Shown here piece after piece: positions 9,017-19,991 of a DNA stretch of 20,451 bases. Position numbers and translations under genes: made by a program. Numbering within the stretch: position 1 is the stretch's first letter; every line of letters begins with the position of its first letter. The notes under the pieces were generated by a model that was given only the letters and a program-made list of their open reading frames with translations, ran no database searches and was not told the DNA's origin. The stretch is from a virus: positions 1 through 20,451 of IMG/VR virus record IMGVR_UViG_3300030098_001508; one strand, 5' to 3'.

Positions 9017-12000
9017 CTATTCTCGATCTTGTATCTCTGCACCTTTGTACGTATAGTCACTTTTTTGTTTAGTTGCAACTGCTCGTAACTGTTCATCTGT
9101 ATAACCTAAACCACCATCTGCAACTGGTCTTCTTATTAACTTTAGTAGTAATGAATGTAAACCTTGATTTGCATCTATACCATATAAGTCTTTCAATTTA
9201 TATTTATTTTTATTTATAGCTATAAGTAAATCTTCTGCACCATTATCAAGATATTGTCTTCTGTTCTTCCAGTTATTTAATTTAAGTTTTTGGTCTGGTG
9301 GTAAACTTTCTTCAAACTTATCTCTTTCTTCACCTATTGCTGTCCAATCATAAACATTTCTAGGATCTGTAGTTCTTTTAGGACTAATCAAATGATTGTC
9401 TATTATTGCATAATATTCATTCAACATAATATCATCAGGCAATGTTGACTCATCTCCTGTGTAATTACCTATGTCATTATTAATTCTATATTCTTGTAAT
9501 GCTATATACTCGTCATCTTTTTCATCATATAAATTATCTACAAATTCTTGTATAAGATATTTTACTTTACCAAAATCTCTTTTACCTTCTCTATGAATTT
9601 CTTCTGGATTAAGTAATTTCCTTACAAGTTCATCTGTATAATACTTAACATTGTTTGCTGTAATAGTTTCTTTTTTTTCTCTTGTAAGAATATACTTAGA
9701 ATAGTTATTACCTCTTGCAGCTTTACCAGATTCTATTTCAAGCAAAGTTTCTTTAAACTCTGGATCACGTTTTATTTTATCTTTTTCTATGGTAGAAAGT
9801 TCATCATATTCCTTTTTATAAAATTTTGCTGCTGCGTTGTTTCTTATATCTCTAGTGTAATTTCCTCTAAGATTGAAACCTGCAGAATCAATAATGTTAC
9901 CTGTGTTTGATAATCTTGTTGATTGTCTATCACCTATTATTTCTTCTCCTGAAGGTATTGAAACAGGACCAAGATTAAATCCTGGCATATTTCTTACAAG
10001 ATATTCTTCTATTGGTTCTTGTAAAGATATAGGTGTTAAGGTATCTTGTAATGCTTGATAACCTCTTCCAAAAACAGCAAAAGGTCCAGCATTAGAAATT
10101 TTTTCACCAAAAAAGTTTTCTCCTTTTACTTGACTTAAAAAAGCACCAACCGGAACAGATACTCTACCTTCTACCCAACTAAATGGATCTAATATTCTTA
10201 TTGCTGTATCTAACTGTCCAACTAAATCAAGAGATGCACTAGTTCCATCTTTGCCTAATCCTGGTATATCAGGTGATGCAAACCTTGTATTATATCCAAT
10301 AGGTAATGGTCCCCAACTTGTTTTACTAACTGGACTGTACCTATCTTTAGGCAGGGGTTTACCAGTTGAAGCATAATGAATAGCATTAGCTGTAAGTATT
10401 AAAAATAGATATTGTCCTATTATATTTGTTGCATATAACCTAGAGTTTTCATCACTAACTTTACCAACTCCAGGTATTTTATTTATCATCTCAGTAAATT
10501 TTTTATCGTTTAGTTTTTTTCCTGTTAGTCTACCTGTTGTTCTGATTGCCATTTCAGGACCAAGTGTAAGCAACGCTTTTAAGCCTCTTATTTGCTGACG
10601 AATAATACCCTCTGATTCACCAAGTGAAAACATCCAACGAGTTAGAAACCATCGAACAGGTTGATTATGTATACGAGATTGAGATGCTGGAATAGAAGAG
10701 TATTTCATGTTAACAAAGTTAGTTGCTGCACTAATAACTTGTTGATTTGTGTAATTTGGATTACTTGATATTATTTGTGGTATTACCCTTTCTATTTCTG
10801 TTTTTATTGCAAAAGGATATACTCCATTAAACAAACCATCTCTTGACCATCGTTCTAAATTTCCTAATGTTTGTTTTCCAAGTTTAGGAAATTTTTTTAG
10901 TACATTAGTTTCTTCTACTACTTCACTAATTAGTTTGTCAAATTCTTTACCTGCAAAAATAGTTCTATCTTCTATATTCAAACCACCTTTTAAAATATCT
11001 CTGAAGGTAATAGGTTCTCTATCTTTTCCTTGATATTTCATCCACTTTGGTTGTTCTTTTCCTGTATAGTATTTTCCTAGAACATCTTTTGTATCATCTA
11101 ACAAAGCATCTTTGATACCATTTCTTGCAGCATTTCTTATCCTTACATTTGCTATACCATAAAATGACCTAGGTACATCATATGCAGCGTTAAGTGCTAA
11201 TTTAAATTGACTTGGTTCTCCAAGAATACCTCGTGTAAAAGCATCTACAAATGCACCAATACTACCAATTAAACTTCTCCCTAAAAAGTCGACATCTTGA
11301 AATACGCTTGCTAAAAGTTTTGCTCTTTTAGGTACAAATACTGCATTGTCTACATATTTATTCACATCTATATTGTCAAGATATTTTACTTTTATGTTTG
11401 GTATTTGAGATTCCACTTTAAAAATTTGTTCTATTTTATTTGCAATTTCACTCTCTACTATCCAACTATCTACCATTATTGTTTTACCATCTTCAGTTCG
11501 TATTGGTTTTCCTTTAAAGCCTGGTAAGTTTGGTATTCTAAATCCTGTTTCTATTTCAGGTTCTCTATCTACTGGATCTATTTCATATCTTCTTGATTTA
11601 GTTAATTCATATCTTTTTAGTGCATCTTTTAAAAATTGTTGGAATCTAAAATTCTCACCTTTACCATTAGAGATAGCTATCTGTTGAAATATATTCCAAG
11701 ACAAAGGTTCAAATCCAAGTTGCCTCATATCATCATAACTGTACATATTTCTTTCGTCTGTAAAACCTGGTCTTCTTCCAAAATTAGATTTAGCTTTATT
11801 CTGAAAATAAGCATCTACATTTTGATTGGCTTTTTTTGCTTCTTCTAAAAATTCTTTACTTGGTTTCCACCCTCTGCTAATATAATAATCTTCTGCATTC
11901 TCAGCTAACTTTGGATCAAAATCAAACCTTTTTAATTCTTCTACATGAACTTCATTCCATGCTGTGTTATAAACATCAACATAATTTTCATCCACATTGT

Positions 12001-14308
12001 TTTCTCGTAAGTATCTTCTAACATCATTATTCAAATATTTTTTCCTACCATCTACCATTGAAGTTCCAAGTTCTAAACCTTCTTGAACTACATCATCTGC
12101 AATCCTTGCTTCTCCATGTAGAAGTCTCAACAACACATCTGTGATTCTTTTATCTTCGTCTGTAACAGCTACACGTTGACCTTGGAATTTTTTTCCCCAA
12201 CCTAATTTTTCATATACCTTATTATTATTTCTTAGACTTTGTTTTATAAGTAAAGTTGCAGCATTAAGTTTAGATTCTAAATTAATAATTAATCGTCTTC
12301 CTAATGTTTCATCTTGTAATACTCCATCTTCTAATGCTTCTATTAATTCATTTTCAACATTAGGATCACTTGCATCATCTATTACTTTTTGTGACGCATT
12401 ATCTGGATCTTTAGGTCCACCTGGATTAGGTGCATTACTTTCTATGTATGTTGTTTTTTGTTGTTCAGGTGATAGTCTTGCTTTTTGTCCTGGTGTTGCA
12501 TTTATATTTTTCTTTATATTTTTTTTGTTATTCATTATAGTTTCTGAAAACTGACCAGGGCGAATAATATCGTACTCTGCTTGTTGTAACAAATCTTGTA
12601 GTTTAGGTGCAACTACGTCTAAATCTTTTGCAGCTTGATCTTTAAATGTTTGATTTAATATAGTTTTCATTCTATCTATGTAAGCATCAGTTAGAAATTC
12701 TTGTGGTATTCCCATTCTATTTAGAGTAGCTTTTGCTATTAGTGTAGCTTCTGTTCTTTTTGCACGATCTTTAGAACTTGTATATAAAACTTTTATAAGA
12801 TTTTCGTTACCTGGTTCTTTAGTATATTGAATTTTTCGAGAACCATAATTAGGTTTAAAGCTGTTTATTTTTTTGAAGTATGTAGAATCAGCTTGGGCAG
12901 CAGGTGTAAATATTATATTTCCATCTCGTATGTTTTCTTGTACAGGTTGTGAATTAATTATTTGTCTCAAAGGAGATACATCAGGTACATCATTTACGTC
13001 TGGAGATATACCTCTTGTTCCTGGTAATTGTTCTTGAAGTTGTTCTAGTTCTGCTTGTCTTTCTGCTTTTTTTGCTGCACTAATATTTGGATTACTAAGG
13101 TCATCTTCTATTCTTACAATCCTTCGTTGGATTTCTTTTGCTGTATTAGTTGCTGCTTCTTTAGTTGCTCTAGTTTGTGGTTGCCCTTTCGGAACTAATA
13201 CTGTGTCTACGTTTATATTCTTAGAAACATTTGGTAATTGTTTTTCTGCTTCATCTATAATGTTTTGTTGTATAATCTTTTGACCTTCTGTAAGGTTAGG
13301 TTTAGATAATTCTATTTTTGCATCTTGAACACGTTTTTGTATATCATATAAATCATCTGAAGCAGCAAAAGCTTCACCACCATACAAAGGATTTATTCTA
13401 TCTAATATCTGTCCTTCTGGTCTTTGAAAAACTTGTGCAAGTTTTGTGTCACCTAATACTCTTACACCAGGTATTGCAGCAACTGGTCTAGCAGCTAATC
13501 TTCCTGCTGTTCCTGCTAATCTAGCAACGTCTGATAATTCTTCTCCTAAGAAATCTAATCCTAATGCAGATGCAGTATCTGATCGTGTTCGTATTGGTCT
13601 ACCTGTAGGTCTACTTGCACCAGCTGCTCTCAGACCTGCAGCTATGTCTCCTGCTGTATCTGCTGCTCTTACAACATTTTTAGGAACTAATCCCCCTCCA
13701 ACAAATTGTCCTCCTAAAGTACCAACTCTTTCAAAAGTTTCTGGATCACCTATACCTGTAAACTCAGAAAATGTTTTTGCTCCTTGTCCTAATGCCAATC
13801 CTCCTACTACTTCTCCAGGTATAAAGGGTGCTTGTATAGGTAGTGTTGCTATTTCTGCTAATACTCTTGGGTTAGAACCAGCTCGTAATTGTGTTTCTGC
13901 TCTAGTTTCACCTGTAGCTCTGTTAACATTCATCAAGTTTTGTAAACGTATCCTACCATTTTTAACTTGGTCTGCTATAGTTCTACCTGGCAAAGGTCTA
14001 TCTCCACCAATAGATTGAAGTTGTCTTTTTATTACATACAGGTCTTGCTCATCTTTAGGTAAAAAATTTAAATCGTCACCAGTTTCTGCTACCTCTCTAA
14101 ATATCTCTTCTCTAGTAGGTAAACCTTGTGGTCCTTTTCTTGCATTTTCTATTGCATTAAACTTTTTTCCAGTAAGAGGATCTGTCTTTTCTCCTGGAGT
14201 ACCAACTATACTTTGTGCAGCTTCAGGAATATTACCAAAGGCTCTTCCTATAGGATCTGCTACAAATCTGCGAAAGCCTCCTCCTAGTGCTGCTGCTCCC
14301 ATTACCAT
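9017..14308 (-). CDS. Giant internal virion / DNA-ejection protein candidate
   Basis: 1763 residues, the largest gene in the window. The N-terminus is Ala/Gly-rich (MVMGAAALGGGFRRFVADP) and a second Gly-rich amphipathic stretch lies near 160-230 (VGGLALGQG, LGGQFVGGGLVP). Residues about 370-830 are charged and helical, rich in Lys, Asn, Asp and Gln. Hydrophobic segments appear near 1010-1025 (LIGSIGAFVDAF) and 1297-1312 (YLFLILTANAIHYAS). The last 330 residues are again polar (KRDPEFKETLLEIESGK and similar). Very long, helical, mostly motif-free proteins with scattered hydrophobic stretches are typical of proteins packaged in podovirus heads and injected with DNA (for example T7 gp16). I see no lytic transglycosylase or polymerase motif. 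Its place between portal-side genes and the scaffold is unusual. A perfect AGGAGGT lies 5 nt before the ATG. Confidence 0.55.
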   Translation of the reverse strand: MVMGAAALGGGFRRFVADPIGRAFGNIPEAAQSIVGTPGEKTDPLTGKKFNAIENARKGPQGLPTREEIFREVAETGDDLNFLPKDEQDLYVIKRQLQSIGGDRPLPGRTIADQVKNGRIRLQNLMNVNRATGETRAETQLRAGSNPRVLAEIATLPIQAPFIPGEVVGGLALGQGAKTFSEFTGIGDPETFERVGTLGGQFVGGGLVPKNVVRAADTAGDIAAGLRAAGASRPTGRPIRTRSDTASALGLDFLGEELSDVARLAGTAGRLAARPVAAIPGVRVLGDTKLAQVFQRPEGQILDRINPLYGGEAFAASDDLYDIQKRVQDAKIELSKPNLTEGQKIIQQNIIDEAEKQLPNVSKNINVDTVLVPKGQPQTRATKEAATNTAKEIQRRIVRIEDDLSNPNISAAKKAERQAELEQLQEQLPGTRGISPDVNDVPDVSPLRQIINSQPVQENIRDGNIIFTPAAQADSTYFKKINSFKPNYGSRKIQYTKEPGNENLIKVLYTSSKDRAKRTEATLIAKATLNRMGIPQEFLTDAYIDRMKTILNQTFKDQAAKDLDVVAPKLQDLLQQAEYDIIRPGQFSETIMNNKKNIKKNINATPGQKARLSPEQQKTTYIESNAPNPGGPKDPDNASQKVIDDASDPNVENELIEALEDGVLQDETLGRRLIINLESKLNAATLLIKQSLRNNNKVYEKLGWGKKFQGQRVAVTDEDKRITDVLLRLLHGEARIADDVVQEGLELGTSMVDGRKKYLNNDVRRYLRENNVDENYVDVYNTAWNEVHVEELKRFDFDPKLAENAEDYYISRGWKPSKEFLEEAKKANQNVDAYFQNKAKSNFGRRPGFTDERNMYSYDDMRQLGFEPLSWNIFQQIAISNGKGENFRFQQFLKDALKRYELTKSRRYEIDPVDREPEIETGFRIPNLPGFKGKPIRTEDGKTIMVDSWIVESEIANKIEQIFKVESQIPNIKVKYLDNIDVNKYVDNAVFVPKRAKLLASVFQDVDFLGRSLIGSIGAFVDAFTRGILGEPSQFKLALNAAYDVPRSFYGIANVRIRNAARNGIKDALLDDTKDVLGKYYTGKEQPKWMKYQGKDREPITFRDILKGGLNIEDRTIFAGKEFDKLISEVVEETNVLKKFPKLGKQTLGNLERWSRDGLFNGVYPFAIKTEIERVIPQIISSNPNYTNQQVISAATNFVNMKYSSIPASQSRIHNQPVRWFLTRWMFSLGESEGIIRQQIRGLKALLTLGPEMAIRTTGRLTGKKLNDKKFTEMINKIPGVGKVSDENSRLYATNIIGQYLFLILTANAIHYASTGKPLPKDRYSPVSKTSWGPLPIGYNTRFASPDIPGLGKDGTSASLDLVGQLDTAIRILDPFSWVEGRVSVPVGAFLSQVKGENFFGEKISNAGPFAVFGRGYQALQDTLTPISLQEPIEEYLVRNMPGFNLGPVSIPSGEEIIGDRQSTRLSNTGNIIDSAGFNLRGNYTRDIRNNAAAKFYKKEYDELSTIEKDKIKRDPEFKETLLEIESGKAARGNNYSKYILTREKKETITANNVKYYTDELVRKLLNPEEIHREGKRDFGKVKYLIQEFVDNLYDEKDDEYIALQEYRINNDIGNYTGDESTLPDDIMLNEYYAIIDNHLISPKRTTDPRNVYDWTAIGEERDKFEESLPPDQKLKLNNWKNRRQYLDNGAEDLLIAINKNKYKLKDLYGIDANQGLHSLLLKLIRRPVADGGLGYTDEQLRAVATKQKSDYTYKGAEIQDRE

Positions 14309-18427: not shown

Positions 18428-19804
18428 TTACCACCTGTTTACTGTTATCAATTTTTGTGATCCTGTAGCTCTTGCATATCCAAAGTTTACCACAAGTCCA
18501 TAGGTTGTCGCCTTAATTCCATGGTTGAAACTATCCCTTGGTTCTCTTCCTACAACATTTCCATCCCTATCAGTTCTCCATGTGTAGACATGAATTTGGT
18601 CATCAAATGGATTTGAACAACCACCTAATTCTGAAATTATACCTTTACATTTTGGATTAATAATCATGTTTGGCTGCTTTGTAGCAGGATTTTCTTTCAA
18701 AAATGTATTAAATCTTTCAATACCATCTAGTATACCAACTCTTTCGGATTGCATATACAGTCCTCCAAATTCTAGCCATGTGTCTACAGGTCTTGATTCA
18801 CCAATATTGTGTGCAGCTATATCGATTACACCATGTTCTACGTCTTTCCACCAAGGTCTCATAGTACAAATCTCTATGATTTCCTCTGTAATCTTTTCTC
18901 TTTCGTATATTTCGTCTATGATTCTTACTTGGTCACCGATTATTTGTACAGCCATGACTGCGTATGCTGACTTTGTTACCTGAGAATAACCTGGATCAAC
19001 CCATAAATGTACAGGTTCTTCCATAATGTACTCTGCATCCTGGGAAACATGGTGTGTTGAGTCAAACATATTGTGTACAAGTCCAGAAGGAGGTGCAGGT
19101 TTACCAGCTACACGTTCATTGAACCAGTCATCTGAGTGTAATCTTTCTAATGACAGTATTTCAGGATCATTTCTGCCTTTTGGGTACACTACTTTGTTGG
19201 TCCATGAGGGTAATGAAAAGGATATTGCATCATCTTCTGCGTTATAAAACTGCCATGACTCCCATTGTGATGGATACCAACCTAATGACATTTCAAATGT
19301 ACCTTCAAGAAACAAATATCCACGTTTTTCTGCTATTCTTCCTCTAAGTCTTAGGAAAGATTCGTGATCTATCTGTGATGCTTCGCAGGCTACTATCATT
19401 CTAGGTGCTTCCATCGCTAGGCTTCTATGATCTTGTGCAGATTTGGTCTTTATTTGGAAAGTTCCAGGGTTTTCGCTACTTCCACAGGCTATTGTCATGG
19501 AACCTGGATCTATTCTTTTGGTTTGTTTTATCAGAAATCCTAGTCTGTGTAGAATATCTGTAAGATAGTTCCATTCTGCTCTGGTTCTTTCGTAGTCTCT
19601 AGCCACTAACCATACAATATCACCATCTTCAAACTCATCAAGTTTGCTAATTATGGATAATGCACCTAAGAAACTCTTACCAGCTCTCTCACCACCAGCT
19701 ACAAGTTTGATTCTAGCAGGATGATCTAGTATTTTTTCCTGTTCTGCCCATGTATCAAGTCCGATACCTTGAAGTATTGATTTCCTATCTTGTGGTAAAA
19801 ACAT
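18428..19804 (-). CDS. terL: Terminase large subunit (ATPase-nuclease packaging motor)
   Basis: 458 residues. A Walker A loop GGERAGKS spans 37-44, with K43 the ATP-contacting lysine. The Walker B strand is RMIVACEA (135-142) with E141 as the catalytic acid; the Asp usual before it is replaced by Cys140. A coupling motif LEGT follows at 166-169. The RNase-H-like nuclease domain supplies D270 (HLWVDPGYS), D328 (GVIDIAAHN) and D424 in DSFNHGIKATTYGL, the usual three acids. It cuts concatemeric DNA and pumps it through the portal. ATG at 19802-19804 has only a weak ribosome site (GGGAAG/AAAGAG), and a structured leader lies just upstream. No small subunit gene is found in the 650 nt before it. 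Confidence 0.95.
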   Translation of the reverse strand: MFLPQDRKSILQGIGLDTWAEQEKILDHPARIKLVAGGERAGKSFLGALSIISKLDEFEDGDIVWLVARDYERTRAEWNYLTDILHRLGFLIKQTKRIDPGSMTIACGSSENPGTFQIKTKSAQDHRSLAMEAPRMIVACEASQIDHESFLRLRGRIAEKRGYLFLEGTFEMSLGWYPSQWESWQFYNAEDDAISFSLPSWTNKVVYPKGRNDPEILSLERLHSDDWFNERVAGKPAPPSGLVHNMFDSTHHVSQDAEYIMEEPVHLWVDPGYSQVTKSAYAVMAVQIIGDQVRIIDEIYEREKITEEIIEICTMRPWWKDVEHGVIDIAAHNIGESRPVDTWLEFGGLYMQSERVGILDGIERFNTFLKENPATKQPNMIINPKCKGIISELGGCSNPFDDQIHVYTWRTDRDGNVVGREPRDSFNHGIKATTYGLVVNFGYARATGSQKLITVNRW

Positions 19805-19827
19805 ATTTCTCTTTCTTCCCAGTTTTA

Positions 19828-19908
19828 GAGTAAAGCCAAAGCCTCCAAACGTAGGAGGCGAATCTTCAGCCTGGAGACTCGGCTGTTGAAGGACAAGGCT
19901 TTTTACTC
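19828..19908 (-). ncRNA. Structured leader RNA candidate, closed three-way junction
   Basis: Three stems close on one another. The outer stem pairs 19828-19837 with 19897-19908 (10 bp with a 2-nt bulge). The second pairs 19841-19846 with 19854-19859 (GCCTCC/GGAGGC, 7-nt loop). The third pairs 19864-19871 with 19881-19891 (5 + 3 bp with a 3-nt bulge, 9-nt loop). The minus-strand transcript would carry it 23 nt before the terminase ATG and downstream of a predicted promoter. In that orientation GGAGG lies in the arm of the second stem. I could not match it to any riboswitch or ribozyme class I know. The structure could also act as DNA or as a plus-strand RNA, since the pairing is symmetric. Confidence 0.55.
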
Positions 19909-19925
19909 GTACCTACAAAAAGCAT
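19866..19925 (-). CDS. Possible 19-codon leader peptide
   Basis: ATG (19923-19925) to TGA (19866-19868) encodes MLFVGTSKKPCPSTAESPG. An AGGA sits 6 nt upstream. The frame overlaps the 5' arms of the outer and third stems of the structured leader, and its stop codon lies in the 3' arm of the third stem. Translation would therefore open the structure, which fits a leader-peptide control arrangement. The peptide itself has no runs of regulatory codons. Such a short frame could arise by chance. Confidence 0.3.
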   Translation of the reverse strand: MLFVGTSKKPCPSTAESPG

Positions 19926-19991
19926 CTGTTTTCCTAATGACGAACCAGAGAAGGAGACACGCCAGATACAAATCAGACCTTCAACACTATT

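Follow-up and report, generated by a model that had tools for sequence, protein, structure and literature searches.

A conserved structured RNA in the leader of the terminase large-subunit gene of a group of uncultured viruses

The translational riboswitches preQ1-I, preQ1-II and SAM-II each consist of a conserved core and a pseudoknot that hides the Shine-Dalgarno sequence. A structured RNA that works differently is put of phage HK022, in which two simple stem-loops act on RNA polymerase in early operons. Conserved leader RNAs with complex tertiary pairing are, to our knowledge, known in few phage structural operons, and we know of no riboswitch-like element that has previously been shown to control phage genome packaging. 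In the gene 32 operator of T4 a pseudoknot in the leader nucleates autogenous repression, the operator having a single pseudoknot of about 28 nt that is followed by UUAAA repeats coated by gp32 (PMC535899).

The leader described here precedes terL, the gene for the terminase large subunit, in a viral DNA of 20,451 nucleotides (IMG/VR record IMGVR_UViG_3300030098_001508, positions 1 to 20,451), the whole of which is called the window below. Comparison with relatives indicates that this leader contains a conserved structured RNA, which is larger than first reported and folds differently (Table 1). Its structure is conserved on the sense strand, shows covariation and always lies 5' of terL, as is the case for a cis-regulatory leader RNA. 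With preQ1-I, preQ1-II and SAM-II it has in common a core plus, in six of nine P3-bearing groups, a predicted pseudoknot that could occlude the ribosome site, whereas it has no match in Rfam and the gene is that of a phage terminase, not one of metabolism. With the gene 32 operators of T4 and RB69 it shares a 5' pseudoknot in a phage leader, ahead of the ribosome site in the gene that encodes a nucleic-acid-binding protein, and also divergence between relatives (PMC535899), but compared with T4 the terL core is larger and is followed by a hairpin whose loop is complementary to the Shine-Dalgarno sequence. The likeness to put is that of a structured RNA at the start of phage operons, and a literature search on put antiterminators found nothing. 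The pRNA of phi29 is likewise a structured RNA beside packaging genes, and the first-pass annotation of the window, which had reported a three-way junction of 81 nt in this leader, compared the two as helical junctions; the terL leader has instead a topology of tandem pseudoknots, the Rfam pRNA model matches neither the window nor, in relatives, sequence close to the leader, and nothing beyond location supports the likeness. A literature search for structured RNA at terminase genes found nothing relevant, a prior listing in a broad compendium of phage RNAs being possible.

In the window terL starts at 19804 on the minus strand, the leader is the minus strand from 19805 upward, and terL is the first gene of a leftward virion operon. 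In longer contigs of relatives terL likewise heads the virion operon, and beyond the leader lies an oppositely oriented replication operon that encodes a Prim-Pol primase-polymerase and AAA ATPases. The ribosome site of the gene had been called weak and this is borne out, as only GGGAAGAAAGAG precedes the start. The promoter that had been predicted upstream of the element was not recovered in the window, where a consensus scan gave no good sigma-70 site just upstream and one site in all, against 2.8 expected in shuffles. By eye, a TATACT-like box is seen about 20 nt 5' of the element in many relatives, not in the window, and a TTGACA-18-TAATGT pair upstream of it in L109 and L110. Several relatives (for example L037, L093, L102 and L107) keep a block of CCCCCCTATAGTCCCCCC or similar upstream of the leader, the reverse complement of which contains ACTATAGGGG, resembling the core of a T7-type promoter directed from terL toward the other operon; among the few early proteins that were scanned there was no Pfam match to an RNA polymerase.

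Two terL searches of IMG/VR, the contigs of which are often fragmentary, gave 68 contigs with the terL start present, at least 100 nt upstream of it and 74-100% protein identity, and an additional nine contigs came from terL searches at 62-64% identity (L112-L120). Isolate phages gave terL matches at 24-29% identity only, and a single scan of genome contigs found no relative of window-type terL in proviruses or hosts. The leaders diverge strongly between relatives whilst terL stays similar, which makes the leaders informative for comparison. By leader sequence they sort into ten groups: A (the window, L001-L007), B (L008-L010), C (L011, L012, L040), D (L013, L014, L019-L021, L024, L046, L089-L092), E (L015-L018, L028, L031-L035, L095), F (L022, L029, L030, L042, L043), G (L023, L025-L027, L122), H (L036-L039, L047, L093, L094, L096-L101, L105, L108, L111), I (L102-L104) and J (L106, L107, L109, L110).

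The core came to light when 28 distinct leaders were aligned with plain MAFFT: two helices are visible, along with AUC-GG and GGU as invariant blocks, and RNAalifold recovers PK1 and P1 unprompted. The core extends the element to a 5' limit near 19972, so that the 81 nt first reported are the 3' half only. The common form of helix P1, CGGGG/CCUCG, is replaced by AGGGG/CCUCU in group B and by UGGCG/CGUCA in group A, the latter through two compensatory changes. In PK1 the six nucleotides before P1 pair with a downstream GGURYN, the loop of hairpin P2, in variants that include CGUAUC/GGUACG, CGCAUC/GGUGCG and UACAUC/GGUGUA, and there are invariant G.U pairs within both P1 and PK1. The stem of P2, which in the window reads GCUUUUUGU-A-GGUACG-A-GUAAAAAGC, differs widely in sequence between groups, and the junction bases UYAGG are nearly invariant and unpaired in the alignment of leaders. 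PK1 alone is paired in 98.8% of cells, with changes on both sides at three of its six pairs; together with P1 the figure is 99.4%, with both-side changes at 5 of 11 pairs and 37 double-change cells, and a control in which the partner is slid by 1-3 columns gives 42-58% (at most 57.5%). The lengths of the P1 loop and of the P1b-to-PK1b spacer differ by numbers not divisible by three and stops fall in varying frames, thus there is no upstream ORF conserved across the core and a coding function of the leader is unlikely.

Table 1. Features of the terL leader in the window (all on the minus strand; RNA letters in the 5' to 3' sense of the transcript)
Feature	Sequence	Position	Strand	Basis or remark
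terL, terminase large subunit, 458 aa		18428..19804	minus	ORF and PHROG phrog_2, E 1.1e-11
Weak ribosome site	GGGAAGAAAGAG	19809..19820	minus	sequence; most relatives have GGAGG or GGGGG
Structured RNA of the terL leader (PK1/P1/P2 core, then hairpin P3 and the region of the ribosome site)		about 19805..19972	minus	covariance model and relatives
PK1, 5' strand	UGUAUC	19965..19970	minus	PK1 pairing in alignment, helix-level test
P1, 5' strand	UGGCG (most relatives CGGGG)	19960..19964	minus	100% paired
P1, 3' strand	CGUCA (most relatives CCUCG)	19938..19942	minus	100% paired
Junction	UUAGGAAAACA (relatives UYAGGGUUACA)	19927..19937	minus	alignment of leaders
P2, 5' strand	GCUUUUUGU	19915..19923	minus	manual structural alignment, helix-level test
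P2 loop, the PK1 3' strand	GGUACG	19908..19913	minus	alignment, RNAalifold
P2, 3' strand	GUAAAAAGC	19898..19906	minus	structural alignment; also in the closing stem of the three-way junction
P3, 5' strand	GCCGAGUCUCCAGGC	19869..19883	minus	3' regions of relatives, helix-level test
P3 loop	UGAAGAUUCGCCUCCUAC	19851..19868	minus	loop-Shine-Dalgarno comparison
P3, 3' strand	GUUUGGAGGCUUUGGC	19835..19850	minus	structural alignment
Three-way junction first reported		19828..19908	minus	isolated fold; mutually exclusive with P2 and P3

A calibrated covariance model built from the core, R1, matches the window at 19972-19892 on the minus strand with 65.3 bits and E 5.3e-13, the window being a training sequence. 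It matches 67 of the 68 related leaders at 51-78 bits, many of them training sequences or near copies, and always directly before terL; the remaining contig (L095) breaks off within the core. The nine distant contigs found at 62-64% identity all lack the element by R1. Thirteen contigs were searched whole: the 11 of 23-42 kb each have one strong copy, before terL, the distant L112 and L116 have none, and no second copy was found in any of the 13, the next best match reaching 15 bits. Sequence-pattern scans of IMG/VR covered 2.9 million contigs, and the matches that pass R1 are contigs already known to carry window-type terL; candidates without such a gene reach at most 20.6 bits, and the many chance pattern matches away from it were rejected by sequence context or R1. 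The element is tied to a single gene across a whole group of uncultured viruses, with nothing matching it in Rfam.

All leaders except those of group J continue into a long hairpin, P3, with CCUCC or a variant in its loop. In six of the nine P3-bearing groups (B and D-H) this loop is complementary to the Shine-Dalgarno sequence of terL, giving the pairing PK2, for example AUCGCCUCC/GGAGGCGAU in L022 of group F, GCCUCCU/AGGAGGC in L036, UUCCUCCAA/UUGGGGGAA in L020 and ACCCUCU/AGGGGGU in L015, with 9-10 complementary bases reached in group F. The duplex with its own partner beats that with every other group's for L019, L020, L015, L031, both F leaders, L036 and L047; it is not the best for L008 or for the L089-L092 type, and leaders of the L091 type have 5 of 7 PK2 pairs only. 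PK2 is weak in L104 and L011 and absent in L102 and L103, CCUCC being retained nonetheless, and the P3 loop of L102 has no partner near the start codon. The same is the case in group A, where the loop keeps CCUCC (19858-19854 in the window), complementary to the Shine-Dalgarno sequence in most relatives and not in the window, and its own duplex is no better than shuffled. Folded in isolation, the 3' region that forms P3 has z of -2.7 to -3.9 outside group A, and within it -1.14 in the window and -1.9 in L003.

The four leaders of group J keep the core and lack both P3 and a recognisable Shine-Dalgarno sequence, and in L013 and L014 an insertion displaces the start codon from the element by about 75 nt. 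The spacer in these two has GATGTTACC tandem repeats between the old Shine-Dalgarno sequence and the terL start, with a new AGGAG site, and in group J terL starts a short distance 3' of P2. A consensus scan of the window also gave a terminator-like site at 19859-19841, minus strand (GCCTCC-TACGTTT-GGAGGC then TTTGGCTTTA), which overlaps P3. It is unlikely that P3 is an intrinsic terminator or attenuator, because several P3-bearing groups, as read from their sequences, have no U run after it. A pairing of an upstream strand into the P3 loop, considered in L036 and L037, was dropped, since PK1/P2 holds in all groups.

Covariation was assessed in a structural alignment of 30 leaders that was made by hand and fitted to the structure, and is hence biased toward it, above all in P2. 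In the R-scape-style null used, substitutions inferred on the terL tree were reassigned between columns within each branch. All column pairs that reach E<=0.05, among 3486, fall inside the proposed structure, the number being 1 to 8 by measure and null, and 5 to 8 when G-APC or covariation is the measure. At the level of whole helices PK1, P2 and P3 were each matched by 0 of 1500 nulls, with E 0.003 for P1 and 0.009 for PK2; this tree-based null backs PK1, P1, P2 and P3 as predicted helices, and PK2 less strongly. Branch changes on both sides that keep a pair number 24 in P2, 26 in P3, 4 in PK1 and 1 each in P1 and PK2. Within P2 and P3 the alignment holds 91 G.U cells and zero A.C cells, which argues that it is the RNA in the terL sense that is constrained, rather than the DNA or the opposite strand. 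P2 was also tested without an alignment, GGURYN being fixed and the flanks shuffled, and 12 of 27 leaders gave p<=0.05, with a combined p of 5e-10 across leaders that are not independent and 0.09 for the window alone. In the structure-blind MAFFT alignment, with the pairs of the window projected onto leaders outside group A, the paired cells are 100% for P1, 90% for PK1 and 79% for P3, and 51% for P2, which is misaligned there. The first-pass annotation had suggested a new structured RNA in this leader, and for an uncatalogued RNA in that place the covariation test succeeds.

The fold it had suggested fares differently. The 81 nt do fold into a three-way junction in isolation (minus strand 19908-19828, -28.7 kcal/mol, z -3.35, with 0 of 200 dinucleotide shuffles as good, and z -3.16 on the plus strand), though these z-scores overstate significance as the stretch had already been picked; the perfect stem is also there, GCCTCC (19859-19854) pairing with GGAGGC (19846-19841). 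As a conserved structure the junction fits the close relatives of the window and fails in the rest of the family: projected onto the structure-blind MAFFT alignment, its three stems are 50%, 47% and 60% paired outside group A, and it was rejected as the family-wide fold. Its closing stem uses GAGUAAAAAGCC, the 3' strand of P2, and its GGAGGC serves in the family fold as the 3' strand of P3; neither hairpin can therefore coexist with the junction. It is at best a lineage-specific alternative fold of group A. We think it unlikely that this group uses it as the functional fold, whether as a derivative of the family fold or in alternation with it. Besides its z-score, such a use would agree with the unexceptional P3 of the window taken alone, with the minimum-energy folds of the window and L004, which include the junction, and with the four distinct group A relatives, which it suits about as well as the family fold does (3 broken cells against 4). 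The nested part of the family fold comes to -30.3 kcal/mol, with PK1 uncredited, against an unconstrained minimum of -44.9 kcal/mol. On the other hand L002 and L003 have P3 in their minimum-energy folds, L003 breaks two junction pairs, other groups do not conserve the junction, and it would destroy P2 and hence PK1, the pairing of which is intact in every group A leader. The lowest-energy fold of a single sequence can thus mislead, the real helices having emerged only by comparison.

Amongst the roles that had been proposed for the leader, which included a cis packaging signal and a separate RNA, control of terL expression is the best fit, given that in most groups, though not in that of the window, the loop of P3 is complementary to the Shine-Dalgarno sequence. 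We regard it as somewhat probable that the terL leader is a cis-acting regulatory RNA in which P3/PK2 limits translation of terL and the core senses or recruits a signal. The layout resembles that of an aptamer, a conserved core followed by a variable platform able to reach the ribosome site in most lineages. The core PK1/P1/P2 lies close to where the transcript is predicted to begin, and most groups have P3 after it; PK2 would hide the ribosome site, making P3/PK2 an expression platform that limits translation of the packaging motor. The core may then be a sensor or docking site for a signal that opens or stabilises PK2. The signal would probably be a protein of the phage, either TerL or one of the other late proteins, with a host factor or small molecule possible; a protein such as TerL is the first guess because of the analogy with the T4 gene 32 operator (PMC535899). 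As group A has lost PK2 and has a weak ribosome site, control there must act otherwise, possibly through the core, through the alternative between P3 and the three-way junction, or through weak initiation. The gaps in PK2, group J and L013/L014 suggest that the role of the core is not always coupled to occlusion of the Shine-Dalgarno sequence. A more specific version is put forward only tentatively, with low confidence, namely that the core is a putative aptamer for a small molecule or a phage or host late-infection factor and gates synthesis of the packaging motor, P3/PK2 being an interchangeable expression platform that is lost or replaced in some lineages. If the leader does gate packaging-motor synthesis, this would be a concrete RNA-level timing mechanism for packaging.

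The survival of the core in group J without P3 or a Shine-Dalgarno sequence, and in L013/L014 despite the moved start codon, means that a role on the transcript as a whole stays a serious rival, even if we consider it rather unlikely. The leader would then be a put-like antiterminator that modifies RNA polymerase where the long late operon begins, or a 5' stabiliser that protects the transcript from decay, with the complementarity to the Shine-Dalgarno sequence secondary. This might suit a core that lies close to the predicted 5' end of the leader in a virion operon about 20 kb long; such a role leaves unexplained both the match of the CCUCC loop to the Shine-Dalgarno sequence and the constant placement of P3 immediately ahead of the start codon. 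A signal at the level of DNA, a pac or cos site beside terL that is conserved for protein binding, could account for the short near-invariant blocks AUCCGGGG and CCUCGUYAGG that adjoin the terminase gene and for the several contigs that end within about 1.2 kb of the element. We nevertheless hold it to be very improbable, as longer contigs continue through the site, and the many G.U and no A.C cells in P2 and P3, the invariant G.U pairs of P1 and PK1 and the wholesale replacement of P2 and P3 sequences with pairing kept point to a constraint on RNA of one strand. An RNA of the packaging motor that acts in trans, in a role analogous to that of phi29 pRNA, would likewise be structured (about 170 nt) and adjoin terL, but the element runs directly into the terL ribosome site and TerL matches ordinary terminase large-subunit families, and this reading appears extremely unlikely.

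With Rfam 15 no family reaches its gathering threshold in the window, as the first-pass annotation had expected from known consensus features, and scans at relaxed E-values gave implausible chance matches or none. The hammerhead models have no match in the leader of the window, and in eleven related loci the only Rfam match is a hammerhead in L029, about 2.3 kb from the terL leader. This is a type II hammerhead ribozyme (RF02276; L029:657-721, minus strand) with 39.7 bits, above gathering, about 2.3 kb upstream of terL. Elsewhere in the virion operon, a protein of 1763 aa without a Pfam match is encoded at 9017-14308 on the minus strand of the window, and the ORF at the same position in relatives has 2233, 2818 or 3500 aa, making it a giant protein of very variable length.
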